Shown: piece by piece, positions 5,028 to 34,908 of the stretch
How the letters are laid out: every line of letters begins with the position of its first letter
Numbering within the stretch: the stretch's first letter is position 1
DNA from: Parafrankia discariae
GTDB taxonomy: Bacteria > Actinomycetota > Actinomycetes > Frankiales > Frankiaceae
Length of the DNA: 55,269 nt
Reading direction: 5' to 3'
Assembly: GCF_000373365.1 (NCBI RefSeq)
Contig: NZ_KB891226.1
Span: 1-55,269, forward strand
Made by a program: the position numbers and the translations under genes
Notes under the pieces: model-generated
Database searches by the model: none
Seen by the model: only the letters and a program-made list of their open reading frames with translations
Told to the model about the DNA's origin: nothing

Positions 5028-5726
5028 TCAGCCGGTGGGGGGCTGGACGCCCAGTCGACCGAGGCAGGTGTCGACCGTCATGAGGAGATCGCCGAGGTCG
5101 GTGCTGCCCGAGCTGCACCATGCCCGGGTGGCTACCTGGATGGCCCCGAGGAATGTGACGGCGGTCAGCTGGGCGCCCAGCCCGGGGTCGGGCGGGCCGT
5201 TCCCGGCGATGGCGTGTTCAGGCGGGGTGTGTTCAGCGGTGGCGCGTTCAGGAGTGGTGGGTTCGACCGAGCTGGGTTCGGTCTCCTCCGCGAGCTCCAC
5301 GGCGAGTCGGTCGCCGATGGCGACGAGGCGGCTCAGGACCGCTCCCGCCAGGGGCGACGAGCCGTCGAGGAGAAGCAGATGATCAGCGTAGTGGCGCAGC
5401 GAGTCGCCGTCCGGCGACATCAGCGTCCAGGCGTCGAAGGCCGCGTTGCGCAGCGCCGTCAGGGGCGGCTCGTCGGCGGGGCGGCGGCGCAGCGCGGCCA
5501 CGGTCAGATCGCCCATCTCGTCCAGCGGCGCGAGGGCGATCGCCTCCTTGCTGGTGAAGTAACGGAACACGGTGCGTACGGACACCTCGGCCTGGTCGGC
5601 GATCTCCTCCACCGTGGCCGCCTCGTAGCCCTTCAGGTGAAACAGCTCGTGCGCGACATCGATGATCGACTGGCGGGTGCGGCGCTTCTTCCGCTCGCGC
5701 AGGCCTTCCGTGCGCTGGTCCGACAC
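5028..5726 (-). CDS. TetR/AcrR-family transcriptional regulator
   Basis: The 232-residue protein has a classic N-terminal TetR helix-turn-helix at about 15-62 (RQSIIDVAHELFHLKGYEA, then VEEIADQAEVSVRTVFRYF). The C-terminal part is variable and includes a Pro/Glu/Thr-rich stretch at about 150-185 that looks like a flexible insertion. GTG at 5726 follows AGGAGG nine bases upstream. It precedes the squalene-hopene cyclase gene on the same strand with a 217-base gap that shows no clear terminator, so it may be co-transcribed with it. Target and ligand are unknown. Confidence 0.9.
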   Translation of the reverse strand: MSDQRTEGLRERKKRRTRQSIIDVAHELFHLKGYEAATVEEIADQAEVSVRTVFRYFTSKEAIALAPLDEMGDLTVAALRRRPADEPPLTALRNAAFDAWTLMSPDGDSLRHYADHLLLLDGSSPLAGAVLSRLVAIGDRLAVELAEETEPSSVEPTTPERATAEHTPPEHAIAGNGPPDPGLGAQLTAVTFLGAIQVATRAWCSSGSTDLGDLLMTVDTCLGRLGVQPPTG

Positions 5727-6313: not shown

Positions 6314-6447
6314 CGCGCGGGCGGCGCCGCCTCCGGTCGCGACACCGGCTTTCCTTGTTCGATATTTGAACTGATGGTTGTAGAAATAGAATTATGGCTG
6401 ATAGTCTGCCGGCATCCTCAGCATGAGAAGAGAGACGGGCGGGTGCG
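6314..6447 (+). promoter_or_regulatory. AT-rich leader and probable promoter of the F420 oxidoreductase gene
   Basis: An AT-rich island at about 6355-6410 stands out from the GC-rich surroundings. TTGAAC at 6366-6371 and TAGAAT at 6387-6392 (15-base spacing, short) could form a promoter for the gene starting at 6448. The ribosome site is a weak GGGCGGG. Confidence 0.3.
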
Positions 6448-7329
6448 ATGAGGCTCGGGGTCGTCTATCCGCAGATCGAGCTGGAGGGTGATCCGTCGGC
6501 GCTGGCCCGGTTCGCCCAGGCGGCCGAGGCGCTCGGCTACGACCATCTGGTCATGTACGACCACCTCATCGGCGCGTCGCACGAGCGGCGCGACCCGCCG
6601 ATCCGGGGCCGGTACGGGGAGCGCAGCCCGTTCCACGATCCCCTCGCGGCCTTCGCCTACCTGGCCGGCCTGACCGAGCGCATCGAGTTCGTGAGCGGCG
6701 TGCTCATCCTTCCCCTGCGCCAGACCGTCCTCGTCGCCCGGCAGACGGCCGACATCGACCTCATGTCCGGGGGGCGGCTGCGGCTCGGCGTGGGGGCCGG
6801 GTACAACCGGGTCGAGTTCCACGCGATGGGTGTGGACTTCGCCAGCCGGGGCCGGCGACTGACCGAGCAGATCTCCTACCTCCGCCGGCTGTGGAGCGAG
6901 GAGCTGATCAGCTTCGAGGGTGAGTTCGACCAGATCGACCGGGCCAACATCGTCCCGCGGCCGACCCGGCGGATCCCGATCTGGTGCGGAGGGTTCGCCG
7001 AGGCGGCGTTCCACCGGGCCGTCGCCCTGGCCGACGGCTTCGTCTTCGGCTACGGCCTCGACCAGCCGGCGATGGACGGCTGGGCCCGCCTGCGGGAACT
7101 GCTGGCGAACGCGGGCCGGCCGCTCGACGGCTTCGGTGCGCAGTTCGTCCTGCACGCGCCCGGCCGGCCCTACACCGATCAGGAGATCACCGACGGGCTG
7201 CTGCGGCTGCGGGCGGCGGGCGCCACCCACGCCTCGCTGTTCACGATGGGGCGCGGGCTCACCGGCGTCGACCGCCACCTCGACTACATCGCGGAGATCA
7301 TGAAGAAGGCCGAGGTCGCCCTGCGCTGA
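6448..7329 (+). CDS. LLM-class F420-dependent oxidoreductase
   Basis: Luciferase-like monooxygenase superfamily TIM-barrel enzyme (293 residues), probably using coenzyme F420 or FMN to oxidise or reduce a small organic substrate in the cytosol. Family features are the N-terminal LGVVYPQIE strand, the YDHLVMYDHL helix, the VSGVLILPLRQTVLVARQTA segment and the GGRLRLGVGAGYNRVEFHAMG phosphate-binding region at about 113-133, followed by RGRRLTEQI. This is the usual layout of actinobacterial F420 enzymes; the substrate cannot be read from sequence. It stands alone behind an AT-rich leader and is convergent with the acyl-CoA synthetase, with a hairpin between them. Confidence 0.88.
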   Translation: MRLGVVYPQIELEGDPSALARFAQAAEALGYDHLVMYDHLIGASHERRDPPIRGRYGERSPFHDPLAAFAYLAGLTERIEFVSGVLILPLRQTVLVARQTADIDLMSGGRLRLGVGAGYNRVEFHAMGVDFASRGRRLTEQISYLRRLWSEELISFEGEFDQIDRANIVPRPTRRIPIWCGGFAEAAFHRAVALADGFVFGYGLDQPAMDGWARLRELLANAGRPLDGFGAQFVLHAPGRPYTDQEITDGLLRLRAAGATHASLFTMGRGLTGVDRHLDYIAEIMKKAEVALR

Positions 7330-9116: not shown

Positions 9117-9330
9117 TGATCAGCCCCTCGGGTCTGCGCAGGGTTCGGTCGAGCGTTCGGCGGGTCGGCCGCGGGGCGGAGTCCTCCGCCGCGGCCGCGG
9201 CGGTTCGTCCGGGCGCCGTGGGTGCAGGGTGTCCGCACCACGGGTGTCCGGGACGCGGGATGTTCAGGGCTCGGGATGTTCGGGACGCGGCGTATGCGGC
9301 GCGGGGCGGCCGAGCGGGAACCGGTCGGGC

Positions 9331-9359
9331 TTGACACCCCTCCGGGAGCTTACTAACTT
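9331..9359 (+). promoter_or_regulatory. sigma-70-type promoter upstream of the KstD/FMO operon
   Basis: TTGACA at 9331-9336 and TAACTT at 9354-9359 are separated by exactly 17 bases. Downstream is a local AT-rich tract. The nearest plus-strand gene starts at 9686, giving a leader of about 320 bases. The rest of the 9117-9685 gap shows no convincing gene. Confidence 0.6.
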
Positions 9360-9382
9360 GAGCAGCTATTGAACACTGTGTC

Positions 9383-9430
9383 TCACATACTGCACACCTC
9401 ACAGTCTGCACACATCACATAACGCGCACA
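9383..9430 (+). repeat. three tandem 16-bp direct repeats, probable operator array
   Basis: Three consecutive 16-base units start at 9383, 9399 and 9415: TCACATACTGCACACC, TCACAGTCTGCACACA and TCACATAACGCGCACA. The first two share 13 of 16 positions. They begin about 24 bases after the -10 element, so a protein bound here could block initiation or early elongation. The head-to-tail layout differs from the inverted sites usual for TetR and GntR proteins. Confidence 0.6.
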
Positions 9431-9685: not shown

Positions 9686-11350
9686 ATGCACGAGCATGAG
9701 ACGTACGACGTGGTGGTTCTGGGGTCAGGCGCGGCGGGGCTGACCGCGGCGCTCGCGGCGGCCGTGGAGGGCGCCCGTGTCGCGGTGTTCGAGAAGGCGG
9801 AGCTGCTCGGCGGCACGACCGCGCTGTCCGGCGGGACGATCTGGGTCCCCGCCAACCAGCCGGCCCGGGCGGCCGGCATCAAGGACTCCCGCGCGGACGG
9901 CCTGGCCTACCTGGCGAGTCTGTCCTACGGGATGATTCTGCCGGAGCTGGCCGAGGCGCTCGTCGACGGCGGGCCGGAGCTGGTCGACTTCGTCGAGCAG
10001 CGGACGGAGCTGCGCTTCCAGCTGGTCGAGGGCTATCCCGACTACCACCCGGAACGCCCCGGCGGCCTGCCGAACGGGGGGCGGTCGATCGAGGTCGGAC
10101 TCTTCTCCTTCCTCGGGTTCGAGGAGTGGGAGGACCGCATCGCGGGCGACACCCGCCGGATGCTCATCCGTGAGATGCCCCTGGGCGGGGGCACCGGCAC
10201 GCTGGAGCCGGACGTGCTCGCCGAGCGGGAGAAGAACCGCGCGGAGGGACTCGGCCGGGCGCTGGTCGGCGGTCTGCTCCAGGCCTGCCTGCGCCATGGG
10301 GTGCGGGTGGCCACCCGGTCGCGCGGCCTGCGACTGGTCACCGAGGACGGCGCCGTCACCGGGATCGAGATCGAGATCCCCGACGGCACCCGGTCGGTGC
10401 GCACCAGCGCGGTCGTGCTCGCCACCGGCGGTTTCGAGTACGATCCCGATCTCGTCCGCGACTTCCTGCGCGGGCCGCTGACCCGGGCCATCGGCGCGCC
10501 GTCCAACACCGGCGACGGGCTGCGGATGGCGATGCGGGTCGGTGCCCAGCTCGGCAACATGCGGGAGGCCTGGTGGGCCCCGGTGGTCAGCCTTCCCGGG
10601 CATCGCCGGGACGGCGCCCGCAACGGGCTGCTGACCGCCCGGGAGCGCGCGCTGCCCGGTTCGATCATGGTCAACGGCCACGGTCGCCGGTTCGCCAACG
10701 AGGCGGCGAACTACAACGCCTTCGGCGGCGCCTACCACCAGCTCGACGCGTCGAGGTTCGAGTACCCGAACCTGCCCAGCTTCATGATCTTCGACCAGTC
10801 GACCGTCGACCGGTTCGGTGTCTTCGGCGGGGCGCCCGGCGGCGCGGTGCCGGACTGGCTGGAGCGCGCGGACACCCTGGACGCGCTGGCGGGCCGGCTC
10901 GGCCTGCCAGCGGCCGAGGTGGCGGCGACCGTGCGGCGGTTCAACGAGCATGCCCGGGCCGGCACCGACCCCGACTTCGGCCGCGGCGACAACGCCTACG
11001 ACCGGTTCCCCGGCGGCCGGGTGCTCGACCCCGACTCGACCCTGTCCACGCTGGGCCCGGTCGAGACCGCGCCGTTCTACGGCGTGGAGGTCGGGTCGTC
11101 GGCGCTCGGCACCAAGGGCGGGCCCCGCACCGATCGGGACGGCCGGGTCCTGGACGTCGACGGCGACGTGATCCGCGGGCTCTACGCCGCGGGGAACGTG
11201 ATGGCGAGTCCGTCCGGCATGGTCTACGGCGGTGCCGGGGCGACGCTGGCCGTCGCCGGGGTGTGGGGTCTCTACGCCGGGCGCGCGGCGGCGCGTGACC
11301 CGGCGGCCGGAGCCCGGTCGCCGGTCCTGAGCGAACAATCCGGAAGCTGA
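9686..11350 (+). CDS. FAD-dependent oxidoreductase, 3-ketosteroid dehydrogenase/fumarate reductase flavoprotein family
   Basis: Probable 1,2-desaturase of a cyclic ketone, storing electrons in FAD. The 554-residue protein opens with a dinucleotide fold (VVVLGSGAAGLTAALAAAVEG, about 8-28) and the family strand GGTTALSGGTIWVPAN. A second FAD contact is SAVVLATGGFEYDPDLVRDF (about 245), and the C-terminus carries RGLYAAGNVMASPSG, then MVYGGAGATL, the region that in KstD contributes the active-site tyrosine and glycine. KstD, the 4-ene dehydrogenase and related keto-acid desaturases cannot be separated by eye. It is the first gene of an apparent operon with a flavin monooxygenase and an esterase, with 46 bases to the next gene. 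A second homologue is at 52.8 kb. Confidence 0.85.
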   Translation: MHEHETYDVVVLGSGAAGLTAALAAAVEGARVAVFEKAELLGGTTALSGGTIWVPANQPARAAGIKDSRADGLAYLASLSYGMILPELAEALVDGGPELVDFVEQRTELRFQLVEGYPDYHPERPGGLPNGGRSIEVGLFSFLGFEEWEDRIAGDTRRMLIREMPLGGGTGTLEPDVLAEREKNRAEGLGRALVGGLLQACLRHGVRVATRSRGLRLVTEDGAVTGIEIEIPDGTRSVRTSAVVLATGGFEYDPDLVRDFLRGPLTRAIGAPSNTGDGLRMAMRVGAQLGNMREAWWAPVVSLPGHRRDGARNGLLTARERALPGSIMVNGHGRRFANEAANYNAFGGAYHQLDASRFEYPNLPSFMIFDQSTVDRFGVFGGAPGGAVPDWLERADTLDALAGRLGLPAAEVAATVRRFNEHARAGTDPDFGRGDNAYDRFPGGRVLDPDSTLSTLGPVETAPFYGVEVGSSALGTKGGPRTDRDGRVLDVDGDVIRGLYAAGNVMASPSGMVYGGAGATLAVAGVWGLYAGRAAARDPAAGARSPVLSEQSGS

Positions 11351-11396: not shown

Positions 11397-13190
11397 ATGA
11401 CTGAGACCTTAGAGAATCCGGCTGAGACGATCACCGCGCGGGACGCCGAGGACATCTTCGCCGGATGGCTCGCCGACTTCGCGGCGGCCCTGCGGAGCGG
11501 ATCCACGTCCGACCTCGCCGCGCTCTTCCTCCCGGAGGCGACCTGGCGGGACTTCATGGCCTTCCCCTGGGACTTCCACCACACGGTCGGGCGGGAGGAG
11601 ACCGTCACCCGGCTCACCGAGCTGGCGAAGGCCTGGAACGCCGCCGACTTCCGGCCCAGCAGGGAGCAGCCGCCGGTCGTCACCGACGGCGCCGTCAACG
11701 CGTTCTTCGACTTCACCACCTCGGACCGGATCGACCGTGGCTATGTGCTGCTCGTACCGAGCGAGGGGCACTTCGTGGTGTCGATCCTGCAGACCCAGGT
11801 GATGGGGCTGCAGGCCCATCCGGAACGGGTGCGTCACCACCGCCGGGACGGCAAGGTCTACGGGATCGTGCCGGACCGCACCCGGTGGTCGAGCGACCGC
11901 GAGAAGGAGATCGCCTTCGAGGACACCGAGCCCGCGGTGCTCGTGCTCGGCGCGGGGCACAACGGGCTGGCCACCGCGGCCCGGCTCGGCGCGCTCGACG
12001 TGCCGACGCTCGTCATCGACCGCGAGGCCCGGGTCGGGGACACCTGGCGCAAGCGCTACGCGTCGCTGGCCCTGCACAGCACCGTCTTCGGGGACCATCT
12101 GCCCTACCTGTCGCTGCCGCCCTCCTGGCCGGCGCACACCCCGAAGGACAAGTTCGCCGACTGGCTGGAGTCGTACGCGAACCTGCTCGACCTCAACGTG
12201 TGGACGTCCACCACGTTCCTCGACGGGCACTACGACGAGGACGCCCAGCGGTGGACGATCCGGGTCCGGCGCGGCGACGGCTCGGTCCGGGAACTGCACC
12301 CGCGGCACTTCGTCGTGGCGGGCGGGCTGTTCGGCTCGCCGAAGATCCCCGCGATCAAGGGCCTCGAGACCTTCCCCGGCATGACGGCGCACTCGGACGA
12401 GTTCCAGTACGGCGCCGACTTCGCGGGGAAGAAGGCGCTGGTGATCGGGGCCGGCGTGAGCGGCCACGAGATCGCGCACGACCTGTACGAGCACGGCGCG
12501 GACGTCACCATGCTGCAGCGCAGCGCGACCTACGTGGTGAGCTACGAGTCCTACCACCGGTACTGGTCGACGCTGTTCACCGAGGACATGCCCTACACCC
12601 CGGACTTCGCGGACCAGATGACCTACTCGCTGCCCAACGAGCGGGTGGACGAGCTCAACAAGAAGCTGGTGAAGCTCGCCGCGGCGGCCGACCAGGATCT
12701 CCTCGACGGTCTCACCTCGCGCGGCTTCAAGCTCGAGTGGGGCCCGGACGGCACCGGCATCATCGGCGCCCACATGTCCGGCAAGGACGCCTACCAGATC
12801 AACATCGGCGCGTCCGAACTGATCGCGGACGGCCTGGTGCACCTCAAGCAGGGCGTCGAGGTGGCCGAGATCAGGGAGCGGACGGTGGTCTTCACCGACG
12901 GCTCGACCCTCGACGTCGACCTGATCGTCTTCGCCACCGGCTACCACCAGTTCTGGGGCCACATCAAGCCGACGCTGGGCTCGGTGGCGGACCGGATCGA
13001 CAAGGCGTACGGCCGTGCCGCGGACGGCGAGTACGCGAACACGTGGCGTCGCTCCGCCCAGCCCGGGCTGTGGTTCGGCACCGGGTTCATCCGGATGGCC
13101 CGTTTCTACACCCGGTTCACGGCGCTGCTGATCAAGGCGATCGAGGTCGGTGTCGAGCCGATGGACCCGGACCGGGCCGACGGCGACTGA
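11397..13190 (+). CDS. flavin-containing (Baeyer-Villiger-like) monooxygenase with N-terminal SnoaL-like region
   Basis: NADPH- and FAD-dependent oxygenase of 597 residues. The first about 150 residues (DIFAGWLADFAAALRSG, with ATWRDFMAFPWDFH) resemble a SnoaL/NTF2 domain, an extra compared with standard monooxygenases. The FAD fold begins near 181 (VLVLGAGHNGLATAARLG), the NADPH fold near 347 (ALVIGAGVSGHEIAHDL), and between them FPGMTAHSDEF (about 326-336) fits the F-x-G-x3-H-x3-F fingerprint. C-terminal LIVFATGYH is also typical. The fingerprint ends in F, as in N/S-oxidising FMOs, rather than the W of classical BVMOs, yet the next gene is an esterase, which would suit hydrolysis of a Baeyer-Villiger ester. 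The stop overlaps the esterase start (TGATG). Confidence 0.88.
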   Translation: MTETLENPAETITARDAEDIFAGWLADFAAALRSGSTSDLAALFLPEATWRDFMAFPWDFHHTVGREETVTRLTELAKAWNAADFRPSREQPPVVTDGAVNAFFDFTTSDRIDRGYVLLVPSEGHFVVSILQTQVMGLQAHPERVRHHRRDGKVYGIVPDRTRWSSDREKEIAFEDTEPAVLVLGAGHNGLATAARLGALDVPTLVIDREARVGDTWRKRYASLALHSTVFGDHLPYLSLPPSWPAHTPKDKFADWLESYANLLDLNVWTSTTFLDGHYDEDAQRWTIRVRRGDGSVRELHPRHFVVAGGLFGSPKIPAIKGLETFPGMTAHSDEFQYGADFAGKKALVIGAGVSGHEIAHDLYEHGADVTMLQRSATYVVSYESYHRYWSTLFTEDMPYTPDFADQMTYSLPNERVDELNKKLVKLAAAADQDLLDGLTSRGFKLEWGPDGTGIIGAHMSGKDAYQINIGASELIADGLVHLKQGVEVAEIRERTVVFTDGSTLDVDLIVFATGYHQFWGHIKPTLGSVADRIDKAYGRAADGEYANTWRRSAQPGLWFGTGFIRMARFYTRFTALLIKAIEVGVEPMDPDRADGD

Positions 13191-14188
13191 TGGCCGCCAT
13201 CGACGTGCACAGGCGGGTCGAACCCGGGACCGTGGCGCTGCTCGATCGGCTGGCGCGCTGGGACCTGACGAGCATCGCGACGATCCGGCGCTCGTACGCG
13301 GCGGTCGGCCCGCCGCCCGCCCCCGAGGACCCGCGGGTCCGGCGGCACGACCAGGTCGTCCCGGGTACGGACGGCCGTCCCGACGTGCGGGTGCGCTGGT
13401 ACCGCCCGGCCGACGCGCCGGACGGGGCGGCGCTGCCGTTCCTGCTCTGGCTGCACGGCGGCGCCTACATCATGGGGAACCTGGACGAGAACGACGACCG
13501 CCTCGACCGGATGGTCATCGAGCTCGGCTGCGCCGTCGCCTCGGTCGACTGGCGGCTGGCCCCGGAGCACCCCTACCCGGCGGGCCTGGAGGACGCGGAG
13601 ACCGTCTGGCGCCGGGTCAGCGCGAACCCGGCCGACTTCGGGGTCGACCCGGCCCGGCTGGTCCTGGGCGGGGCGAGCGCGGGTGCCGGCCTGGCCGCCG
13701 GGCTGTGTCTGCGGCTGCGGGACCTCGGCGTCCCCCAGCCGGTGCTGCAGCTGCTGATCTACCCGATGCTCGACGACCGTGAGCTGACCCCCTCGATCCG
13801 CGCGCTCGAGGACCCGGGCCACTGGGGCCTGTGGCATCTGCGGGCCAACCGGTTGTGTTGGGCGGCCTATCTCGGGTCGCTCGCCGGCGGCGAGGTCCCG
13901 CCCAGCGCCGCGCCGGCACGGGCGGAGGACCTCACCGGGCTCGCGCCGGCCTTCCTCGGGATCGGCGACGTCGACGGGTTCGTGGACGAGAACGTCGCCT
14001 ACGCGGCACGCCTGTCGGCCGCGGGCGTGCCGACCGAGCTGCACGTGTACCCCGGGGTCATCCACGGCGGGTTCGGCGCGCCGCCGCGCACCCCGCGCAC
14101 CGCGCAGTTCCTGCGGGATGTCTACGCGGCGCTGGCCGCCGCGTTCGTGCCGGCGGACGGATCCCAGGAAGCCGGCGAGGGGCCCTGA
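13190..14188 (+). CDS. alpha/beta hydrolase, hormone-sensitive-lipase family esterase
   Basis: The 332-residue serine hydrolase has the HSL oxyanion motif HGGA (about 90), the nucleophile elbow GASAG with serine near 162 (GDSAG in most relatives), an acid residue in GIGDVDGFVDEN (about 260) and the catalytic histidine in VIHGGFG (about 292). The N-terminal cap helices (ALLDRLARWDLTSIATIRR) are family-like. The start ATG 13190 overlaps the monooxygenase stop as TGATG and its own stop overlaps the next start in the same way, so the three genes are translationally coupled. Likely role: hydrolysis of the ester or lactone made upstream. This is inferred from position. Confidence 0.9.
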   Translation: MAAIDVHRRVEPGTVALLDRLARWDLTSIATIRRSYAAVGPPPAPEDPRVRRHDQVVPGTDGRPDVRVRWYRPADAPDGAALPFLLWLHGGAYIMGNLDENDDRLDRMVIELGCAVASVDWRLAPEHPYPAGLEDAETVWRRVSANPADFGVDPARLVLGGASAGAGLAAGLCLRLRDLGVPQPVLQLLIYPMLDDRELTPSIRALEDPGHWGLWHLRANRLCWAAYLGSLAGGEVPPSAAPARAEDLTGLAPAFLGIGDVDGFVDENVAYAARLSAAGVPTELHVYPGVIHGGFGAPPRTPRTAQFLRDVYAALAAAFVPADGSQEAGEGP

Positions 14189-14724
14189 TGGCCGGGGAGA
14201 ACCTGGCGGACGTGGCGGACCTGGCTGGCCTGGCGGAGGTGGAGAGCAGGGTCCGGCGGCTGGAGGCACGGCTGCGGTCGGCCGAGGACCAGCTGGAGAT
14301 CCTCCGCCTGCTCAACAGCTACGGTCCTCTGGTCGACAGCGGGTCGGCGGAAGAGGCCGCCGACCTGTGGATCAGCGGCGGCGGCTACGAGTTCGGCGTT
14401 CCAGCCGGGAGCGCTGTCCGGGTCGAGGCGCCGCAGGGCCTGGCGGATCTCTACCGGACCGAGCCGCACACCGGGCTGGTCGCCGCCGGCGTCGCGCACC
14501 TCACCGCCCCGCCTCGCGTCACCGTCAGCGGCGACACGGCGGAGGCCGTCGGCTATTCCTTCGTGGTCCTCAGGGAGGATGACCGGTGGTTTCTGTGGCG
14601 GGCCGCGGTCAACCACTGGACGCTGCTGCGCACCCCTGCCGGCTGGCGGATCCGGGACCGCCGCAACCGCGTCCTTGACGGCTCACCCGAGTCGCAGGCG
14701 ATCATGCGCCTGGTGCGGGGGTGA
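14188..14724 (+). CDS. SnoaL-like/nuclear transport factor 2-fold protein
   Basis: A 178-residue protein with the ring-hydroxylating-dioxygenase-beta or SnoaL_4 look: RLEARLRSAEDQLEILRLLN helix, YGPLVDSGSAEEAADLW, a mixed sheet ending in WRAAVNHWTLLRTPAGW and RIRDRRNRVLDG. Relatives act as isomerases, dehydratases or scaffolds; catalytic residues cannot be assigned. Coupled to the esterase through TGATG. The monooxygenase two genes upstream carries a similar fold at its N-terminus. It is followed by the IclR gene. Confidence 0.75.
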   Translation: MAGENLADVADLAGLAEVESRVRRLEARLRSAEDQLEILRLLNSYGPLVDSGSAEEAADLWISGGGYEFGVPAGSAVRVEAPQGLADLYRTEPHTGLVAAGVAHLTAPPRVTVSGDTAEAVGYSFVVLREDDRWFLWRAAVNHWTLLRTPAGWRIRDRRNRVLDGSPESQAIMRLVRG

Positions 14725-14774
14725 GAGCCCGCGCCGTGCAACCGGGCGCTGACGGGGCCGGATACCATCAGCCC

Positions 14775-15527
14775 ATGGCCCGAGCCGACCAGACGGAGAT
14801 CGTCAAAGCGCAGCCTGGGAGCCAGACGCTCGCGCGCGGTCTGCGGGCCCTCATCGCCGTCACGGAATCCGGGACGGGCCTGACCACCCAGGAAGTCGCG
14901 GAACGGCTTTCCATCCATCGGTCGATCGCCTACCGGCTGCTTCAGACATTCGTGGATTTCCGGTTTCTCACCCGTGCCGACAACGGCGTCTACCGGCCGG
15001 GCGCGAGGCTCGTGTCGCTCTCGGACGCGTACCTGCCGGGCCTGCGCGAGATCGCCCTGCCCTCGATGCGGCGGCTGGCCGAGCGACTCGGCTCCACGAT
15101 CGCGCTCTTCATCGCCGAAGGTGAGGAAGCGGTCGCGGTCTCGCTGGTCGAACCCACCAACACGACGCATCACCTGTCGTTCCGCGCCGGCATGCGGACC
15201 CCGCTGGACCGGGGGTCGGCGGGCTACGCGCTCGCCTCGGCGCTTCCGCCGCGGCCCGGCGAGCCGGCCGGGGTGAAGCTCGCGCGCGAGCTCGGCTTCG
15301 CGGTCAGCAGCGGTGAGATCGAGGCCGGGGCGCACGGCGTCGCGGCGCTCATCCCGGCCCGGTCCTCCAGCCCGCTCATGTGCCTCCACCTGGTCACCTT
15401 CCGTTCCGAGGTGGCGGACGGCGCCGGCCCGGTGATGGTGCAGGCCGCCGGCGAGATCGGCCAGCTCTTCGACGGCGGCGACCGGTTGTCGGGCGCCCGG
15501 GTGCCCGGGCTCGGCCAGGCCGGCTAG
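14775..15527 (+). CDS. IclR-family transcriptional regulator
   Basis: The N-terminal winged helix is LARGLRALIAVTESGTGLTT followed by QEVAERLSIHRSIAYRLLQT. A ligand-binding domain follows (MRRLAERLGSTIALFIAEGE, then the characteristic LSFRAGMRTPLDRGSAGYA). I place the start at ATG 14775 (250 residues); a GTG at 14721 overlaps the previous stop as GTGA and would add 18 unmatched residues. The gene sits between the flavoprotein operon and the mhp-type operon on the same strand. The E. coli mhp regulator MhpR is also IclR-type, so this protein probably controls the operon starting at 15830, perhaps through the palindrome at 15769-15786. Confidence 0.87.
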   Translation: MARADQTEIVKAQPGSQTLARGLRALIAVTESGTGLTTQEVAERLSIHRSIAYRLLQTFVDFRFLTRADNGVYRPGARLVSLSDAYLPGLREIALPSMRRLAERLGSTIALFIAEGEEAVAVSLVEPTNTTHHLSFRAGMRTPLDRGSAGYALASALPPRPGEPAGVKLARELGFAVSSGEIEAGAHGVAALIPARSSSPLMCLHLVTFRSEVADGAGPVMVQAAGEIGQLFDGGDRLSGARVPGLGQAG

Positions 15528-15732: not shown

Positions 15733-15761
15733 TTGACACCCTTGAGGGCGGATCCTACTGT
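15733..15761 (+). promoter_or_regulatory. sigma-70-type promoter of the mhp-type operon
   Basis: TTGACA (15733-15738) and TACTGT (15756-15761) with a 17-base spacer lie 69 bases upstream of the first gene. The rest of the 302-base gap 15528-15829 has no gene; 15528-15720 is featureless GC-rich sequence. Confidence 0.65.
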
Positions 15762-15768
15762 GCATATT

Positions 15769-15786
15769 TAGAACGCTGGCGTTCTA
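15769..15786 (+). promoter_or_regulatory. 18-bp perfect palindrome, probable operator
   Basis: TAGAACGCTGGCGTTCTA is a perfect inverted repeat (8-base arms TAGAACGC/GCGTTCTA, centre TG). It begins 7 bases after the -10 element, so it covers the expected transcription start, a position fit for repression. A second short palindrome, GCGCTAGCGC, follows at 15798-15807. Confidence 0.6.
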
Positions 15787-15829
15787 TAGTTCGTACAGCG
15801 CTAGCGCGGGTCGCTGGCGAGGGTGCAGC

Positions 15830-16717
15830 GTGACCGAGGGATGGGCCAGGCGCGTGTCGGAGTTCGAAAGCATCTGGAGTGACCTTCAAGGCGTCCCGTT
15901 CTCGCAGGGATACCTGGACGCCGCGGGCGTGCGGACGAGATATCTGCACGCCGGCGACAAGAACCAACCGGTGCTCGTCCTGTTACACGGCTCGGGCGGG
16001 CACGCCGAGGCCTACGTCCGCAATCTGGAGGCCCACGCCCGGCATTTCTCGACGTGGTCGATCGACATGCTCGGGCACGGGTACACGGGCCGGCCGGGTC
16101 ATCCCCTGGAGATCGCCCACTACGTGGAGCACCTGACCGCGGTGCTCGACACCATCGGCGCGGACCGGGCCCACATCAGCGGCGAGTCCCTCGGGGGCTG
16201 GGTCGCGGCCCGCGCGGCCGTCGACCATCCGGACCGGGTCGACCGGCTGGTGCTCAACACCGCCGGCGGGTCGCAGGCCGATCCGGTCGTCATGGCCCGG
16301 ATCCGCACCCTGTCGATGGCGGCGGTGGAGGACCCGGCCTGGTCGACCGTCCAGGCCCGGATCAAGTGGCTGATGGCGGACAAGACCAAGGACTACGACG
16401 ACCTCGTCGCCAGCCGGCAGCGCGTCTACCGGCAGCCCGGCTTCACCGCGGCGATGAGCGACATCATGGCGCTGCAGGATCCGACGATCAGGGCCCGCAA
16501 CCTGCTCGGCCCGGCCGAGTACGGCGCCATCACCGCACCCACGCTGGTGCTGTGGACGAGCGACGACCCGACCGCGGACGTCGAGGAGGGCAGCCGGATC
16601 GCCTCGATGATCCCGGGCGCCCGCTTCGAGGTGATGCCCGGCTGCGGCCACTGGCCCCAGTACGAGGACGCCAAGACCTTCAACCGCCTGCACGTCGACT
16701 TCCTGCTGGGGCGCTGA
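15830..16717 (+). CDS. mhpC: alpha/beta hydrolase, meta-cleavage product hydrolase (MhpC-like)
   Basis: Expected to split the C-C bond of a 2-hydroxy-6-oxo-dienoate ring-fission product, releasing a short acid and 2-hydroxypentadienoate. The 295-residue protein has the oxyanion motif [11 protein letters not shown], the nucleophile in SGESLGGW (serine near 119), an acid in WTSDDPTAD (about 245) and the histidine in GCGHWPQYE (about 273). GTG 15830 is the start. It is first in a colinear run of hydrolase, hydroxylase, extradiol dioxygenase, hydratase, acetaldehyde dehydrogenase and aldolase, which supports the pathway assignment. The exact aromatic substrate is inferred. Confidence 0.88.
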
Positions 16718-16719
16718 CC

Positions 16720-18456
16720 ATGGCCACGGACCTGCCCAACCCCGGCCCCGGCCCCAACCCCGGCCCCGGAGCCGGCGCCACCGCGCCGGCGGTCGTGCTG
16801 ATCGGCGCCGGGCCGGTGGGACTGACGCTCGCGAACCTGCTCGGCGGCCACGGTGTGCGCACCCTGGTGGTCGAGGAGCGGGAGACGCTGATCGACTACC
16901 CGCGCGGGGTCGGTCTGGACGACGAGTCGCTGCGCACCTTCCAGAGCACGGGCCTGGTCGACCGGATCCTGCCGCACACGAACCCCAACCAGGTGATGCG
17001 GTTCGTCGACGCGAAGCAGCGCGTGCTCGCCGAGATCGCGCCGACCAGCGAGCCGTTCGGCTGGCCGAAGCGCAACGGCTTCGTCCAGCCGCTGGTGGAC
17101 GCCGAGCTGCTGGCGGGGCTGCGGCGGTACGAGCATGTCGAGGTCCGCTGGAACCACCGGATGGAGTCACTGGAGCAGACCGCCGACGGGGTGACGGTGG
17201 GGCTGTCCGGGCCCGACGGCCCCTCGACCGTCACGGCCGGCCATGTCGTCGGCTGCGACGGCGGGCGCAGCGCCACCCGCCAGCTCATGGGGGTGTCGTT
17301 CGAGGGCACGACGTCGCCGACGCGCTGGCTCGTGGTCGACATCCGCCCCGACCCGCTCGGCCGGCCCAACGTGGACGTCGGCGCGGACCCGGCGCGTCCG
17401 TACGTGTCGGTGTCCATCGCGCACGGCATCCGCCGCTTCGAGTTCATGCTGCACGCGGACGAGGCCGACGAGGCGGCGGAGGACCCGGAGTTCATCGGCA
17501 CGATGCTCGCCCGGTTCGTCCCGCGCCCGGACCAGGTCAACATCATCCGGCGCCGGGTGTACACGCACCACTCGCGGATCGCCGGCTCCTTCCGCGCCGG
17601 GCGGGTCCTGATCGCCGGCGACGCCGCCCACCTGATGCCGGTCTGGCAGGGCCAGGGCTACAACAGCGGCATCCGGGACGCGGCCAACCTCGGCTGGAAG
17701 CTCGCCGCGGTGGCGAACGGCCTGGCCGGCGAGGCCCTGCTCGACACCTACGACGTCGAGCGCCGCCGGCACGCGCAGGCGATGATCGACCTGTCGACGA
17801 CCGTCGGGCGCATCATCTCCCCGACCAACCGGCGGGTCGCCACCGTGCGGGACTGGATCGCCCGGACGGCCTCGGCCGTGCCCGCGCTCAAGCAGTACGT
17901 CGTGGAGATGCGGTTCAAACCGATGCCGCGGTACGTCGAGGGCGCGGTCGTGCACACGGAGCCGATCCGGGCGAACTCGCCGGTCGGGACCCTGTTCATC
18001 CAGCCGCGGGTCGACACCCGCGAGCGGGAGAACGTCCGGCTCGACGACGTGCTCGGGCCCTGGTTCGCCGTGCTGTGCTGGAACAACGACCCGTACGAGC
18101 TGCTCGGCCCCGAGACGTTCGCGAGGTGGAAGGCGCTCGGCGCGACCTTCGTCGCGCTGCGGCCGCTCACCCAGCTGCACTGGGCCGACCAGGACCACCC
18201 GGACGTCGTGGTGGTCGGGGACCGTACCGGCGCGCTCAAGTCCTGGTTCGACGCGCACGAGGAGTCCGTGCTCTTCCTGCGGCCCGACCGGTGTGTGGCC
18301 GGTGCCTGCGTCGCCCAGCTGACCTCCGAACTGGCCGCGTCGCTCGTCGGCGCGCTGTCCCTCACCCCGGGAGCCGAGGATGGCGCTCGCCCTCTGCTGC
18401 ATGTCGCACAGTCCGCTGCTCGGTCTGCCCGGCCCGCCGCCGTCTCTGCTGGCTGA
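16720..18456 (+). CDS. mhpA: FAD-dependent aromatic hydroxylase, 3-(3-hydroxyphenyl)propionate hydroxylase type
   Basis: Adds a hydroxyl group to a phenolic side-chain acid using NADH, FAD and oxygen. The 578-residue class A flavoprotein has [17 protein letters not shown] at about 28-44, the DG motif [10 protein letters not shown] (about 178) and the GD motif [21 protein letters not shown] (about 299), followed by [10 protein letters not shown], very typical of MhpA. A proline/glycine-rich tail ([12 protein letters not shown]) precedes the fold. ATG 16720 is two bases after the hydrolase stop. The last 77 bases overlap the dioxygenase gene in another frame, so its final about 25 residues are double-coding. 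Confidence 0.9.
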
Positions 18457-19315
18457 CGTCGGCACGGCGCTCGCCGCCGCCCGGGACGCGGTGCGTGAGT
18501 ACGACCCGGAGCTGGTCGTCCTGTTCGCCCCGGACCACTACAACGGCTTCTTCTACCGGCTCATGCCGCCGTTCTGCGTCGGCACCGCGGCGCGCGGCGT
18601 CGGCGACTACGGGACGCAGAGCGGCGAGCTCGACGTCCCCGCCGAGCTCGCCTACGGCCTCGCGGAGGCGGCCTGGGCGGCCGACGTCGACGTGGCCGTC
18701 TCGACCGGCATGGACGTCGACCACGGCACGGTGCAGCCGCTGGCGGCGCTCTTCGGCGACATCGCGGCCCGTCCGGTGGTCCCGGTCTTCGTCAACTCGG
18801 TGGCGGTCCCGCTGGCGCCGCTGCGGCGGGCCCGGCTGCTGGGGGCCGCGATCGGCCGCTACCTGGCCGGCCTCGACCGGCGGGTGCTCGTGCTGGGTTC
18901 GGGCGGGCTCTCGCACGACCCGCCCGTCCCGAACCTGGCCAGCCCGCCGGAGGTGCTCGAGCGCATCGTGCACGGACGGCCGCCGACCGCCGGTGAGCGG
19001 CAGGCCCGGCAGAGCGCGGTGATCGAGGCGGCGGCGAGCTTCGCCCGCGGTACGGCCGACCTGCGACCGCTCAATCCCGAGTGGGACCGGCGGGTGCTCG
19101 ACGTCCTCGACCAGGGCCGGCTGGCCGAGCTGGACGGATGGACGAACGAGGGGATCACCCGGGAGGGCGGCAACTCCGCGCACGAGATACGCACGTGGGT
19201 CGCCGCGTTCGCGGCGCTGGCCGCGGCGGGGCCGTACCAGGTGCGGACCAGCTATTACCGGCCCGCGCCCGAGCTGATCGCCGGCTTCGCCGTGCGGACG
19301 GCCTTCCCGCGATGA
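18380..19315 (+). CDS. mhpB: extradiol ring-cleavage dioxygenase, 2,3-dihydroxyphenylpropionate 1,2-dioxygenase type
   Basis: Opens the catechol ring next to the hydroxyls (meta cleavage) with Fe(II). The 311-residue class III (LigB-fold) enzyme opens with [15 protein letters not shown] and has [11 protein letters not shown]. Two histidines, H115 in [11 protein letters not shown] and H179 in GGLSHDPP, match by position the two catalytic histidines known in E. coli MhpB. ATG 18380 is preceded by GGGAGCCGAGG. The gene begins inside the hydroxylase gene (77-base overlap). It supplies the substrate of the hydrolase encoded first in the operon. Confidence 0.93.
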
Positions 19316-19367
19316 GGCCGGCGTCCACCCGCGGGCAGTGCTCGCCCCGACGATTCCGAGGTGCCGT

Positions 19368-20180
19368 GTGACTGGCAGCGTTGTGACCGGCGGCGTGGGC
19401 CGCGAGGCGATCGAGGCCGCCGTCGCGCGGCTCGACCGGGCGGCGGTCGAGCACGTGCCGTGCGCGCCGGTCGCCGACCTGATCGGCCCGAGCGACATCG
19501 ACGCGGCCTACGCGGTGCAGTCGGCGCTCACCGCGCTGCGGGTGTCCCGCGGCGCGCGGGTCGTCGGCCGCAAGATCGGTCTCACCTCGCCGGCCGTCCA
19601 ACGCCAGGTCGGCGTGGACCGGCCCGACTTCGGCGTGCTCTTCGACGACATGAACTACGCCTCGGGCGCCACGGTGCCGTTCGGTCGGCTGCTGCAGCCC
19701 CGGGCCGAAGCCGAGATCGCCTTCATCCTCGCCACGGACATCGTCGACCCGGAGCCCGCCGCCGTCCGGGCGGCGGTCGGCAGCGCGGTCGCGGCGATCG
19801 AGGTCGTCGACAGCCGGGTCGCGGACTGGCGGATCCGCATCACCGACACGGTGGCGGACAACGCCTCCAGCGGCGTCTTCGTGCTGGGCGACCGGCATCT
19901 CACCCTGGACGAGTTCACTCCGGCCGACGTGTCGATGCGGATGCTGCGCAACGGCGTGACGGCCAGCACCGGGACGGGGCGGGCGTGCCTCGGCGACCCG
20001 CTCAGCGCGCTGGCGTGGCTCGCGCGCACGGCACTGGACTTCGGGGATCCGCTCCGAAGCGGCGACATCGTCCTGTCCGGGGCGCTCGGTCCGCTTGCCC
20101 CCATCGAGCCCGGCGACGTGATCCAAGCCGAGGTCGGCCCCCTGGGCCCGGTAACGGCGACGTTCGAGAAGGAAGGCTGA
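19368..20180 (+). CDS. mhpD: 2-keto-4-pentenoate hydratase
   Basis: Hydrates 2-hydroxypenta-2,4-dienoate to 4-hydroxy-2-oxovalerate. The 270-residue protein has family blocks [41 protein letters not shown] and [14 protein letters not shown] chose GTG 19368 because GAGG lies six bases upstream; GTG 19338 would add ten unmatched residues. Four bases separate its stop from the acetaldehyde dehydrogenase start. The C-terminus ([20 protein letters not shown]) matches the family. Confidence 0.92.
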
Positions 20181-20184
20181 CACC

Positions 20185-21111
20185 GTGCAACAGGTGGCGA
20201 TCATCGGGTCCGGGAACATCGGCACCGACCTCCTGATCAAGATCAAACGAAGGTCCGAGTCGCTGAGCGTGGCGGCCATGGTGGGGATCGACCCGGAGTC
20301 GGACGGCCTCGCCCGCGCCAGGCGGCTGGGCGTCGCCACGACCTCCGACGGGGTGGCCGGTCTCCTGGCGATGCCCGAGTTCGAACAGGCCGGCATCGTG
20401 CTCGACGCCACGAGCGCGAACGCCCACCGCGCGAACGCGGCGGCGCTGGCCCCGTACGGCCGGCGGCTGATCGACCTCACCCCGGCGGCCCTCGGGCCGT
20501 TCGTCGTACCGGCGGTCAACCTCGACGAGCACCTGAGCGCCCCCAACGTCAACATGACGACCTGCGGCGGGCAGGCCACCGTCCCGATCGTCGCGGCGGT
20601 CTCCCGGGTCACCCCGGTGGCCTACGCGGAGATCGTCGCCACGGTGGCGTCGAAGTCCGCCGGGCCCGGCACCCGCGCCAACATCGACGAGTTCACCGAG
20701 ACGACGGCGCACGCGCTGGAGTCGGTGGGCGGCGCGCGGCGCGGCAAGGCGATCATCATCCTGAACCCGGCCGAGCCGCCGCTCATCATGCGCGACACCG
20801 TGCTGTGCCTGGTCGGCGACGTCGACCGGGACGCGGTCACCGAGTCGATCCACCGGATGATCGCGGACGTCGCCGCCTACGTGCCCGGCTACCGCCTGAA
20901 GCAGGACGTGCAGTTCACCCCCGTGGACCCGGCCGAGATGCGCATTCTCCTGCCGGACGACACGGTCGACGTCCGCTGGAAGGTGAGCGTGTTCCTCGAG
21001 GTGGAGGGCGCCGCGCACTATCTGCCGGCCTACGCCGGCAACCTGGACATCATGACGTCGGCGGCCGTGCGGGTCGCCGAGCGCATCGCGGGATCCGAGG
21101 TGACGGCATGA
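20185..21111 (+). CDS. mhpF: acetaldehyde dehydrogenase (acylating)
   Basis: Converts acetaldehyde, channelled from the aldolase, to acetyl-CoA with NAD+ and CoA. The 308-residue protein has the N-terminal NAD fold [17 protein letters not shown], a [14 protein letters not shown] active-site loop with catalytic cysteine C127, and the C-terminal [20 protein letters not shown] segment. The final ATGA overlaps the aldolase start, in line with the stable heterotetramer these two enzymes form in DmpFG/MhpEF systems. Confidence 0.95.
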
Positions 21112-22118
21112 GCGGGCCGAACATCTATCTGCAGGACGTCACCCTGCGGGACGGGATGCACGCCATCCGGCACCGGGTCGACCCGGAGCGGGTCGGCGCC
21201 ATCGTGGCCGCTCTCGACAAGGCGGGCGTCCGGGCGATCGAGGTCACCCACGGTGACGGGCTGGCCGGCTCCAGCCTGACGTACGGCCCCGGCAGCCACA
21301 CCAACTGGGAGTGGATCGAGGCGGCGGTCACCAACGCCTCGCAGGCCACCATCACCACGCTGCTGCTGCCGGGCGTGGGCACGATCGCCGATCTGCGCCG
21401 CGCGCACGCGATGGGGGTCGGCTCGGTCCGCGTCGCGACGCACTGCACCGAGGCGGACGTCGCCGCCCAGCACATCGCCGCGGCGCGCGAGCTCGGGATG
21501 GACGTCTCCGGCTTCCTGATGATGAGCCACATGGCCGAGCCGGCGGAGCTGGCCGCCCAGGCCAAGCTGATGGAGTCGTACGGGGCGCACTGTGTCTACG
21601 TCACCGACTCGGGCGGCCGGCTGACCACCGACCGCGTGCGCGAGCGGGTCCGTGCCTACCGCGACGTCCTGCGCCCGGACACCCAGATCGGCATCCACGC
21701 GCACGAGAACCTCTCGCTGTCGGTCGCCAACTCGTTCGCCGCGGTCGAGGAGGGCGCCTATCGCGTCGACGCGTCGCTCGCCGGGCAGGGAGCCGGCGCC
21801 GGCAACTGCCCGATCGAGCCGTTCGTCGCGGTCGCGCTGCTGCTGGGCTGGGATCTCGACTGCGACCTGCTCGCGCTGGAGGACGCGGCCGAGGACCTGG
21901 TCCGGCCGTTGCAGGACCGCCCCGTCCGGGTCGACCGCGAGACGCTCACGCTCGGCTTCGCGGGCGTGTACTCCAGTTTCCTCCGGCACGCCGAAATAGC
22001 CGCCGAGACCTACGGCGTGGACGCCCGCAGCATCCTGATCGAGGCGGGCCGGCGAAAACTGGTCGGCGGCCAGGAGGACATGCTCGTCGACATCGCCCTG
22101 GCGATACAGCCCAAGTAA
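21108..22118 (+). CDS. mhpE: 4-hydroxy-2-oxovalerate aldolase
   Basis: Splits 4-hydroxy-2-oxovalerate into pyruvate and acetaldehyde. The 336-residue HMGL-type TIM barrel has the metal/catalytic start [16 protein letters not shown] (R14, D15, H18), VTDSGGRLT, and the metal histidines in [15 protein letters not shown]. The C-terminal communication domain that docks on MhpF is present ([19 protein letters not shown]). ATG 21108 overlaps the MhpF stop by four bases. It completes the route from a dihydroxyphenyl acid to pyruvate and acetyl-CoA. Confidence 0.95.
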
Positions 22119-33328: not shown

Positions 33329-33891
33329 AACAATTACTGGGCCGCGCCGGCGCGACTGCCTGTCGGTTCGGCCGGAACGTGTGGGAAGGCTTACATTTTC
33401 CGATCCGGAAGTCAAGAGGCCAGTGGTTGTGACTCTGGGTGGCAAATCGGTCGCCTTGCGCAGATGTGTGCATGGCCGGTCTTCGCCTGCCGCCCGCCTT
33501 GTCGGCTTCTCCCGGAAATGCCGCTTTCGGTTGGTTGTTCCGCGCATTCCCGTCTCCAGGCAAGGAGGGGGTACCGGAGAGGTGCCGGCTGTCGGCTGCC
33601 GCGGATCGTCTCCGGGGCCGCTGTCTCCGTCCGGGGCGGCCGTCCTCGTCCGGGGAGGGCGGGTCCGGTGGCCTGTGTCCGCGCGCGGTGTGCGACCGCG
33701 CGCCGGTACGGGGTTGATCGATCGGCGGCCCCCTGGCCCGGTCCGTCCATCCCGCCGCGGCCCGTCCGTCGGCAAGGCTCGCTGTTCCACGCCTGGTAGG
33801 CGGGCTGGTCGCCATCGGTCGACCGCCTGCGACCGTTCGGAAGGTGCTTGCTGTCGGCCCGGAGAGCGTCTACATTATCGTCAACTTTCCA

Positions 33892-33925
33892 GACATGATC
33901 GTCGATTTTTTTTCAGGATCATGTC
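33892..33925 (+). promoter_or_regulatory. 9-bp inverted repeat around an AT-rich spacer, probable operator
   Basis: GACATGATC (33892-33900) and GATCATGTC (33917-33925) are perfect inverted arms separated by 16 bases that include eight consecutive T (33906-33913). The AT-rich setting upstream of the TetR gene suggests a promoter/operator, possibly for TetR autoregulation; on the minus strand the same element could fold as a stem. Confidence 0.5.
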
Positions 33926-34027
33926 AGTTTTGGTGCAACGGGCTCGTCGGCAGGCCGGCGAGGGGCACCGGCCCGACGACCGCGCGCAGCGGCGGCGGAC
34001 CGGGACCCCGTGAACAGGTGAGCGGTG

Positions 34028-34183
34028 ATGAAGATGCCGAAGGTGAGCGGGTGCCGGCGGGCGCTGACCGAAGCCCGCCCGCACCCCCTGGCCCGAGGCG
34101 GATGCGGGCGTGGGGTTCGACTACGTCGTCGGACCCGGCACTCGCAGTGCACCAACCCGATGGCCCTGGAGGAGTACCGATGA
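34028..34183 (+). CDS. possible 51-residue leader peptide overlapping the TetR start
   Basis: ATG 34028 opens a 51-codon frame rich in Arg and Cys that ends SQCTNPMALEEYR. Its TGA overlaps the TetR ATG (ATGA at 34180-34183), so the two would be coupled. The ribosome site is weak and the last codons coincide with the TetR GGAGGAG site, so this could be chance. I recognise no family. Confidence 0.25.
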   Translation: MKMPKVSGCRRALTEARPHPLARGGCGRGVRLRRRTRHSQCTNPMALEEYR

Positions 34184-34908
34184 CAGCAGTTCCCCAGCCG
34201 AAGCCGGCGGCGGAACCGGTCTGGAGCTCCGGCGCCGACAGTCAGCTCAGGACACAGCGCTGGGACGACGACCTGCCGCGCTCCCGCCGGGGAGCCGAGA
34301 CAAGGGCCCGACTGGTGGAGGCGGCGAAGAGTGTCTTCGAGGAGAAGGGTTTCCACGACGCGCGGGTCTCCGACATCGGCGAGCGTGCCGGCCTGACCCA
34401 CAGCGCCTTCTACCACTACTTCGACTCGAAGGAGGACATCCTCCGGGAGGTGGTCACCGCCATAGACCATGCCCTCAACTCGGGTATGGATGTCATTCTT
34501 GATCCATCTTCTCCCGCCACCCCCCGCGAGCGCCTCACGAAGGCGATCCGAATTCGTTTCGAGGCACACCGCGAGGAAGCGCGGATCATGAATGTCATCG
34601 AGCAGGTGGCGCGGTACAACGAGTCGATCAACGCTCTCTGGAGCGAGCTCTACCAGCGGCACTGTGAGGAGATGGCGCACTCGATCAAACAGCTCCAGCG
34701 ACGCGGCCTGGCGGACGCGACCCTCGACGCGGTCATCGCCACCGACGCGCTCGCCACGATGACACTGCGTTTCGCCGAACAGTCACTCATGCAGGACGGC
34801 TCTCGATACGACTTCGACATCGCCGTCGACCAGATCACCAAGATCTTCATCAACGCGCTGCAACTTCGCGACCCCAAGAAGCGCCGCCGGCGTGACGACA
34901 GCGGCTAG
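34180..34908 (+). CDS. TetR/AcrR-family transcriptional regulator
   Basis: The 242-residue protein has the TetR helix-turn-helix at about 45-92 (ETRARLVEAAKSVFEEKGF, then VSDIGERAGLTHSAFYHYFD, SKEDILREVV). The C-terminal helices resemble KstR2/FadR-like regulators of lipid catabolism (ITKIFINALQLRD). GGAGGAG lies eight bases before ATG 34180. It ends in a basic tail (KKRRRRDD). Placed between the divergent uptake operon and the aldehyde dehydrogenase/P450 operon, it is the natural candidate to control both, probably through the inverted repeat at 33892-33925. Its ligand may be an acyl-CoA intermediate; this is inference. Confidence 0.9.
   Translation: MTAVPQPKPAAEPVWSSGADSQLRTQRWDDDLPRSRRGAETRARLVEAAKSVFEEKGFHDARVSDIGERAGLTHSAFYHYFDSKEDILREVVTAIDHALNSGMDVILDPSSPATPRERLTKAIRIRFEAHREEARIMNVIEQVARYNESINALWSELYQRHCEEMAHSIKQLQRRGLADATLDAVIATDALATMTLRFAEQSLMQDGSRYDFDIAVDQITKIFINALQLRDPKKRRRRDDSG

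Follow-up and report, generated by a model that had tools for sequence, protein, structure and literature searches.

A probable IclR-family tandem operator, with lineage-specific duplicates of its second site, at a KstD-like promoter of Parafrankia discariae

Described IclR-family operators and the present locus

The IclR family has an operator class (group 1, which includes MhpR) of the form GTNCG-N5-6-CGNAC, as described in passages of PMC8222616, which also predict tandem palindromes 18-22 nt apart in 94 orthologous groups. According to the same passages, this spacing agrees with tetramers whose dimers lie on one face of the DNA. Table 1 of that source gives the operator of Escherichia coli MhpR as GGTGCACCTGGTGCACA, crediting Torres et al. 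2003, and we found this sequence in the mhpR-mhpA gap of strain K-12 (L090:1454-1470). MhpR of E. coli carries the annotation of an activator; phenylpropionate and 3-hydroxyphenylpropionate bind it and stimulate its operator binding, as stated in a passage of PMC11237407.

We analyzed a 55,269-nucleotide stretch of DNA from P. discariae, referred to in full length as the window, in which a promoter and three 16-bp direct repeats precede a KstD-like gene (Table 1). The conserved unit at this promoter consists of two 15-bp imperfect palindromes with the half-site GTKCA, their centers 21 bp apart, directly after the -10 element. It resembles the group 1 tandem operators in its 15-bp palindrome with a 5-bp center, in its 21-bp spacing, which falls within the 18-22 nt given in that part of PMC8222616, and in having an IclR gene within the cluster, in the same 10 of 35 genomes as the KstD-like gene. 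Unlike the group 1 consensus, the fifth base of the half-site is A and not G, the Parafrankia sites are degenerate forms, and one palindrome has been duplicated in 16-bp steps. With the operator of E. coli MhpR the locus shares GTGCA-N5-TGCAC, the regulator family, and an mhp-type cluster; however, E. coli has a single palindrome and activation, and the cluster in the window adds KstD-like and flavin monooxygenase genes. A palindrome with an additional repeated box is also found in the operators of PcaU, PobR, and HmgR, but there the extra box is part of the site and is needed for PcaU binding (passages of PMC8222616), whereas the extra copies here are unconserved.

We consider it probable, from sequence comparison, that the element combines a promoter with an IclR-family tandem operator, probably repressing, whose second site was duplicated within the lineage. 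The earlier note had suggested cooperative binding of an unusual regulator through the direct repeats. Judged by its sequence, the element is instead a familiar kind of tandem palindrome operator and not the sign of an unusual regulator: the conserved site is a palindrome pair of a known kind, and copies 2 and 3 of the repeat are unconserved.

Table 1. Features of the window discussed in the text (bits and ranks refer to the palindromic matrix; ranks are out of 55,255 positions)
Feature	Position	Strand	Details
Operator-like site, GTTCGATATTTGAAC	6357-6371	+	Rank 4; upstream of luciferase-like monooxygenase gene (6448-7329)
Partner of 6357 site, TTGTAGAAATAGAAT	6378-6392	+	21 bp on; 9.3 bits
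Second three-copy 16-bp array, GGGTGTCCGGGACGCG type	9242-9289	+	38/48 identity; same intergenic region as the 9382 array
Promoter TTGACA-17-TAACTT	9331-9359	+	Read in sequence; also present in G002, G003, and the second G003 copy
Operator site 1, GAGCAGCTATTGAAC	9360-9374	+	In 11 aligned promoters; 9.6 bits, rank 13
Operator site 2, TCTCACATACTGCAC	9381-9395	+	14.8 bits, rank 3
Three-copy 16-bp array	9382-9429	+	Copies 2 and 3 absent from orthologous promoters
Array copy 1, CTCACATACTGCACAC	9382-9397
Site 2 duplicate, CCTCACAGTCTGCAC	9397-9411	+	8.3 bits, rank 18; 16 bp on
Array copy 2, CTCACAGTCTGCACAC	9398-9413		88% to copy 1
Decayed site 2 duplicate, CATCACATAACGCGC	9413-9427	+	2.4 bits, rank 171
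Array copy 3, ATCACATAACGCGCAC	9414-9429		75% to copy 1
KstD-like FAD dehydrogenase gene	9686-11350	+	FAD_binding_2; first of presumed operon
Flavin monooxygenase-like gene	11397-13190	+
SnoaL-like protein gene	13831-14724	+
IclR-family regulator gene, proposed binder	14721-15527	+	HTH_IclR, IclR_C
Promoter-like TTGACA-17-TACTGT	15733-15761	+	Before mhp-like operon; read in sequence
Operator before mhp-like operon, GTGCATATTTAGAAC	15760-15774	+	19.0 bits, top score of the window
Putative second site, GTTCTATAGTTCGTAC	15781-15796	+	6-bp center; by eye, 21 bp after 15760 site
mhp-like operon	15830-22118	+	MhpA, MhpB, MhpF, and MhpE pass NCBIfam cut-offs
MhpC	15830-16717	+	Pfam fold and position only
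MhpA	about 16768-18456	+	1068 bits, cut-off 853
MhpB	18380-19315	+	521 bits, cut-off 291
MhpD	19338-20180	+	Hydratase; under its cut-offs
MhpF	20185-21111	+	Above NCBIfam cut-off
MhpE	about 21108-22118	+	Above NCBIfam cut-off

Promoter, direct repeats, and their conservation

The promoter and the three head-to-tail 16-mers claimed in the earlier note were both found in the sequence, with TTGACA at 9331-9336 and TAACTT at 9354-9359. A scan for sigma-70 promoters and terminators gave no call; it missed this promoter because TAACTT agrees with TATAAT at only three of six bases, but the -35, spacer, and -10 are kept in relatives. The three copies of the array are identical at 36/48 positions in pairwise comparison, and TRF reports the array as 9382-9421. 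The motif said to be common to all copies, TCACA-nn-CTGCACAC, occurs in copies 1 and 2 and is lacking in copy 3, and the term "phased" is wrong in the helical sense, as 16 bp corresponds to ~1.5 turns.

We then counted three-copy arrays with pairwise identity of at least 75% and periods of 12-24. Six were detected in the 55-kb window, including a pair with period 16, at 9242 and 9382. In 200 simulated windows from a first-order Markov model, no period-16 array appeared, and the mean was 0.02 over periods 12-24; the 9382-9429 array therefore exceeds what base composition yields. Period-16 arrays are, however, not unique to this locus within the genome: 400 kb of coding and non-coding DNA on contig C2 contained three, along with 20 arrays at periods of 10-20 that are not multiples of three. 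The array at 9242-9289, 140 bp upstream, is unrelated in sequence to the one at 9382-9429. In a genome-wide motif search, TCACANNCTGCACAC matched exactly twice in the 7.9-Mb genome, both times at the 9382-9429 array, and with one mismatch five matches were obtained, compared with four for the reversed control. A regulon of the direct repeat was rejected on these counts.

Orthologues of the KstD-like protein (E up to 1e-150) were found in 10 of 35 Frankiaceae genomes, that of the window included. Together with a second copy in G003, they gave 11 promoters, which were aligned by the site 1 pattern, site 2 then being read at +21. Both sites, 21 bp apart, were present in 11 of 11, and conservation ended at the edge of site 2. 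In the genus of the window (G002, G003, and the second copy in G003), the promoter and the next 36 bp were kept, the conserved block closing on the TGCAC or CGCAC that lies in the first repeat; none of these three promoters has repeats 2 and 3. The seven promoters of other genera carried TTGCCT or TTGCCC, a spacer of 17-18 bp, and TAATCT, followed by (C/G)TGCACTATNAGAAC, six bases, and then GTGCATTATCTGCAC (6/7) or GTGCATTATATGCAC (1/7). Site 2 of the window makes up most of the first 16-bp repeat and is the counterpart of GTGCATTATCTGCAC, and the left half of the Parafrankia site 2 (TCTCA, TCGCA, TATCA, or TTTCA) departs from the palindrome. Since orthologous promoters keep only the promoter and the first repeat, the conserved element is the palindrome pair and not the direct repeat. 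The earlier note had staked its reading on repeats conserved upstream of orthologous operons, where copies 2 and 3 are missing. Of 80 further loci, 62 were checked for arrays (L138 and 61 from outside Frankiaceae), and none of these had a three-copy array close to its operator. A longer conserved downstream pattern, searched with up to two mismatches, matched five places in three of six genomes of the genus against six control matches; four of the five were known promoters, and the fifth was at G000:C115.

Several observations were made beside these promoters. The second kstD promoter copy, with both sites, lies in L012 (G003:C218:6507-9576; operator at L012:1501-1536) in a genome matched to Parafrankia soli, and remnants of a KstD-like gene occur near it at G003:C218:7635-7908. 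In P. colletiae, two 15-bp copies, 93% alike, follow site 2 of kstD (L015:1335-1364), and the mhp-like operator has 12-bp copies 15 bp apart (L056:11052-11078); no array of three copies at 75% identity was found there at period 15-16, and the two-copy repeat is a faint parallel to the array of the window. In G028 (L018, reverse strand), two ACACCGAATCGGATTGAAAC or near copies upstream of kstD look, by eye, like CRISPR repeats.

Matrix scores and spacing of the palindromes

A palindromic matrix was built from eight sites of other genera and scanned over the window. The highest scores were those at 15760, 1489, 9381, and 6357, in this order, among 55,255 positions. The second, 1489-1503, lies inside an open reading frame and is probably a chance match, although it scores above site 2. 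In the 20-kb stretches of two relatives, the best five (L055) and the best four (L056) positions were all at these operators. The site at 15760 has the same position in both relatives; no matrix partner was found for it (best -0.5 bits). The 6357 site and its partner have counterparts in both relatives and, on visual inspection, seem to precede the promoter. In the mhpA/acsA gap of other genera, whose main sites contributed to the matrix and whose partners did not, a partner 21 bp away was the best in five of six loci; in the remaining one it ranked second. Single 19.5-bit sites without a partner were observed at L048:4537-4551 and L054:8448-8462. When the mhp stretch of E. coli was scanned, a position near the lacI start scored highest (14.1 bits), and the known operator was second (11.8).

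For a wider test, we took the best 80 of 362 stretches encoding relatives of the IclR protein of the window in a bacterial genome collection, and searched for pairs with both sites of at least 5 bits at spacings of 13-32 bp. The best pair was spaced by 21 bp in 66 of 80 loci (60/73 outside Frankiaceae); the other 14 gave 22 bp (three loci), 15 bp (two), 17, 20, 26, and 32 bp (one each), or no pair (five). By group, 21 bp was best in 6/7 Frankiaceae, four of which had given matrix sites, in 49/53 mycobacteria, and in 11/20 others; with 53 of the 80 mycobacterial, the loci are not independent. When both sites had to reach at least 7 bits, 72 pairs were found at 21 bp, and the next most frequent spacings were 23, 22, and 18 bp with 11, 6, and 5. 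As a control, 20 stretches of the window's own genome were scanned: 18 gave no pair, one gave a pair at 24 bp and one at 30 bp, and none at 21 bp.

At the level of whole genomes, GTGCANTATNTGCAM with one mismatch gave 43 matches in 10 genomes, the same number as the reversed control, and the palindrome pattern is therefore powerless outside the cluster. Fifteen of the 43 matches were exact, of which 13 were at kstD or mhpA/acsA operators and two in G023:C116. The latter contig has, outside the cluster, two exact GTGCATTATTTGCAC palindromes 34 bp apart (G023:C116:31277-31325).

Predicted regulator, its action, and alternative readings

Orthologues of the IclR protein (E up to 1e-25) occurred in the identical 10 of 35 Frankiaceae genomes as the KstD-like orthologues, and neither gene was found in the other 25. 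The protein is 51-52% identical to those of other genera, and HRSIAYR in its helix-turn-helix is invariant across nine aligned sequences. By tblastn, the gene was detected in six of the seven 20-kb operator neighborhoods of other genera, and the seventh genome has it on another contig. These results point to the IclR protein as the likely binder, as the earlier note had allowed for. Its identity to E. coli MhpR is 22% (BLASTP, E 0.008), and orthology with MhpR was rejected, as the NCBIfam PRK09834 models, which we take to be MhpR, gave 41 and 33 bits against cut-offs of 299 and 269.

IclR dimers would bind the palindromes at 9360-9374 and 9381-9395, two helical turns apart, both on one face of the DNA and probably as a tetramer. 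Binding would most likely repress the KstD-like operon by blocking initiation; repression is predicted because the expected transcription start falls within site 1, which directly follows the -10. An aromatic ligand of the phenylpropionate type would release IclR and lead to derepression, and a ligand related to that of MhpR is plausible here by analogy, although MhpR is an activator. A further probable target of the same IclR protein is the mhp-like operon, and the luciferase-like gene may be another. Repeats 2 and 3 would be recent tandem duplications of the second palindrome, of which copy 2 may bind weakly as a possible extra operator and copy 3 is probably unbound. Promoter activity, IclR binding, repression, and ligand are all points that we infer from sequence. 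The conserved promoter, the regulator site close behind the expected start, and their location ahead of the KstD-like operon support the earlier note in predicting control of this operon. The control also suggested for the divergent acyl-CoA synthetase gained no support: no site of its own lay between 9110 and 9350 (best 1.6 bits); in other Frankiaceae, the acyl-CoA synthetase orthologue has a tandem operator in common with MhpA.

We read the array as the distal operator duplicated in one lineage, with perhaps a minor effect on regulation. That the duplication made a three- or four-site operator, its new sites half a turn out of register, and altered the strength or cooperativity of repression is unlikely; if so, a bacterial operator would here be seen to enlarge by 16-bp steps, the two-copy 15-bp repeat of P. 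colletiae being a lesser parallel. The 16-bp step falls outside the 18-22 nt range of IclR pairs and puts neighbors on opposite faces of the DNA. It is also unlikely that the operator mediates activation, as its E. coli counterpart does, and that transcription really starts further downstream. The half-site is identical to that of the E. coli activator, and some 300 bp separate site 2 from the kstD start codon; against this, site 1 is immediately preceded by a -35/-10 pair in both groups of Frankiaceae. By eye, among 14 loci inspected, the palindrome pair also sits directly behind a -35/-10 pair, or no more than 12 bp from it, in Catenulispora (L123), Actinomadura (L124), and Trujillonella (L142).

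A binding array for an unusual cooperative regulator, made of the three direct repeats, is improbable. The excess over simulated sequence, the operator score retained by copy 2, and the two-copy repeat of P. colletiae would fit it, but copies 2 and 3 are missing from orthologous promoters, the 62 further loci checked have no three-copy array close to the operator, adjacent copies face opposite sides of the DNA, and the unrelated triplet at 9242 is what duplication would predict.

It is very improbable that a short leader-peptide gene, with GTG or ATG at 9378 (MSHILH..., MHYLH... in others), attenuates the operon. The start codon is aligned in four Parafrankia copies with the first codons alike, and the genera differ there by 3 nt. 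However, the frames share nothing past the palindrome and range from 6 to at least 100 codons, and CAT TAT CTG CAC in the seven promoters of other genera has no wobble change except one CTG to ATG. Moreover, the GTG belongs to GTGCA, and other promoters likewise carry this sequence in 21-bp pairs. The leader is less stably folded than its shuffled versions (z +2.15; 200/200 of these fold at least as well), which speaks against both attenuation and the RNA-level element proposed in the earlier note. The leader peptide was rejected, as the constraint stops with the palindrome and the frames diverge. TetR operators are also palindromes, and one TetR gene is close to the 6357 site, but binding by either TetR protein encoded in the window (5028-5726 and 33844-34908) is hardly credible and was rejected, since neither gene was found by tblastn in any of the seven 20-kb operator neighborhoods of other genera, where IclR occurs in six.

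If the tandem IclR operator with a duplicated second site is the correct reading, conspicuous direct repeats next to a promoter can have arisen by recent copying of a palindromic operator. This reading also provides a candidate motif for binding, and a predicted regulon of small size, for an IclR protein whose gene accompanies mhp-type and KstD-like genes in Frankiaceae, Actinomadura, Catenulispora, Rhodococcus, and many mycobacteria. A search of full-text literature, with most subscription journals outside its coverage, returned no title describing the regulator in Frankia, and a query naming Frankia was empty, which hints that the regulator is unpublished there.

Finally, the enzymes of the cluster were compared with family models. 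The best NCBIfam model for the KstD-like protein was 4-oxocyclohexanecarboxylate 2-dehydrogenase (468 bits, cut-off 1000), and none of the 25 cut-offs displayed was passed. The naming in the earlier note is kept as far as a KstD-like FAD dehydrogenase; the score against the 3-oxosteroid 1-dehydrogenase model (389 bits) stays under its cut-off of 788. Among the best 80 of the 362 loci, tblastn at 35% identity or more detected MhpA in 78, MhpC and MhpB in 73 each, and the KstD-like protein in 69, the mycobacterial KstD-like matches being only 42-48% identical and possibly paralogues. The KstD-like gene accompanies MhpA, MhpB, MhpC, and the IclR gene in most of these loci, which suggests that it serves a phenylpropionate or cyclohexyl-propionate pathway and not steroid metabolism. 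Its gene neighbors also prompt the guess that the enzyme may aromatize a cyclic ketone feeding the phenylpropionate pathway. A second KstD-like gene, 38% identical to the first, is located at 52834-54480.
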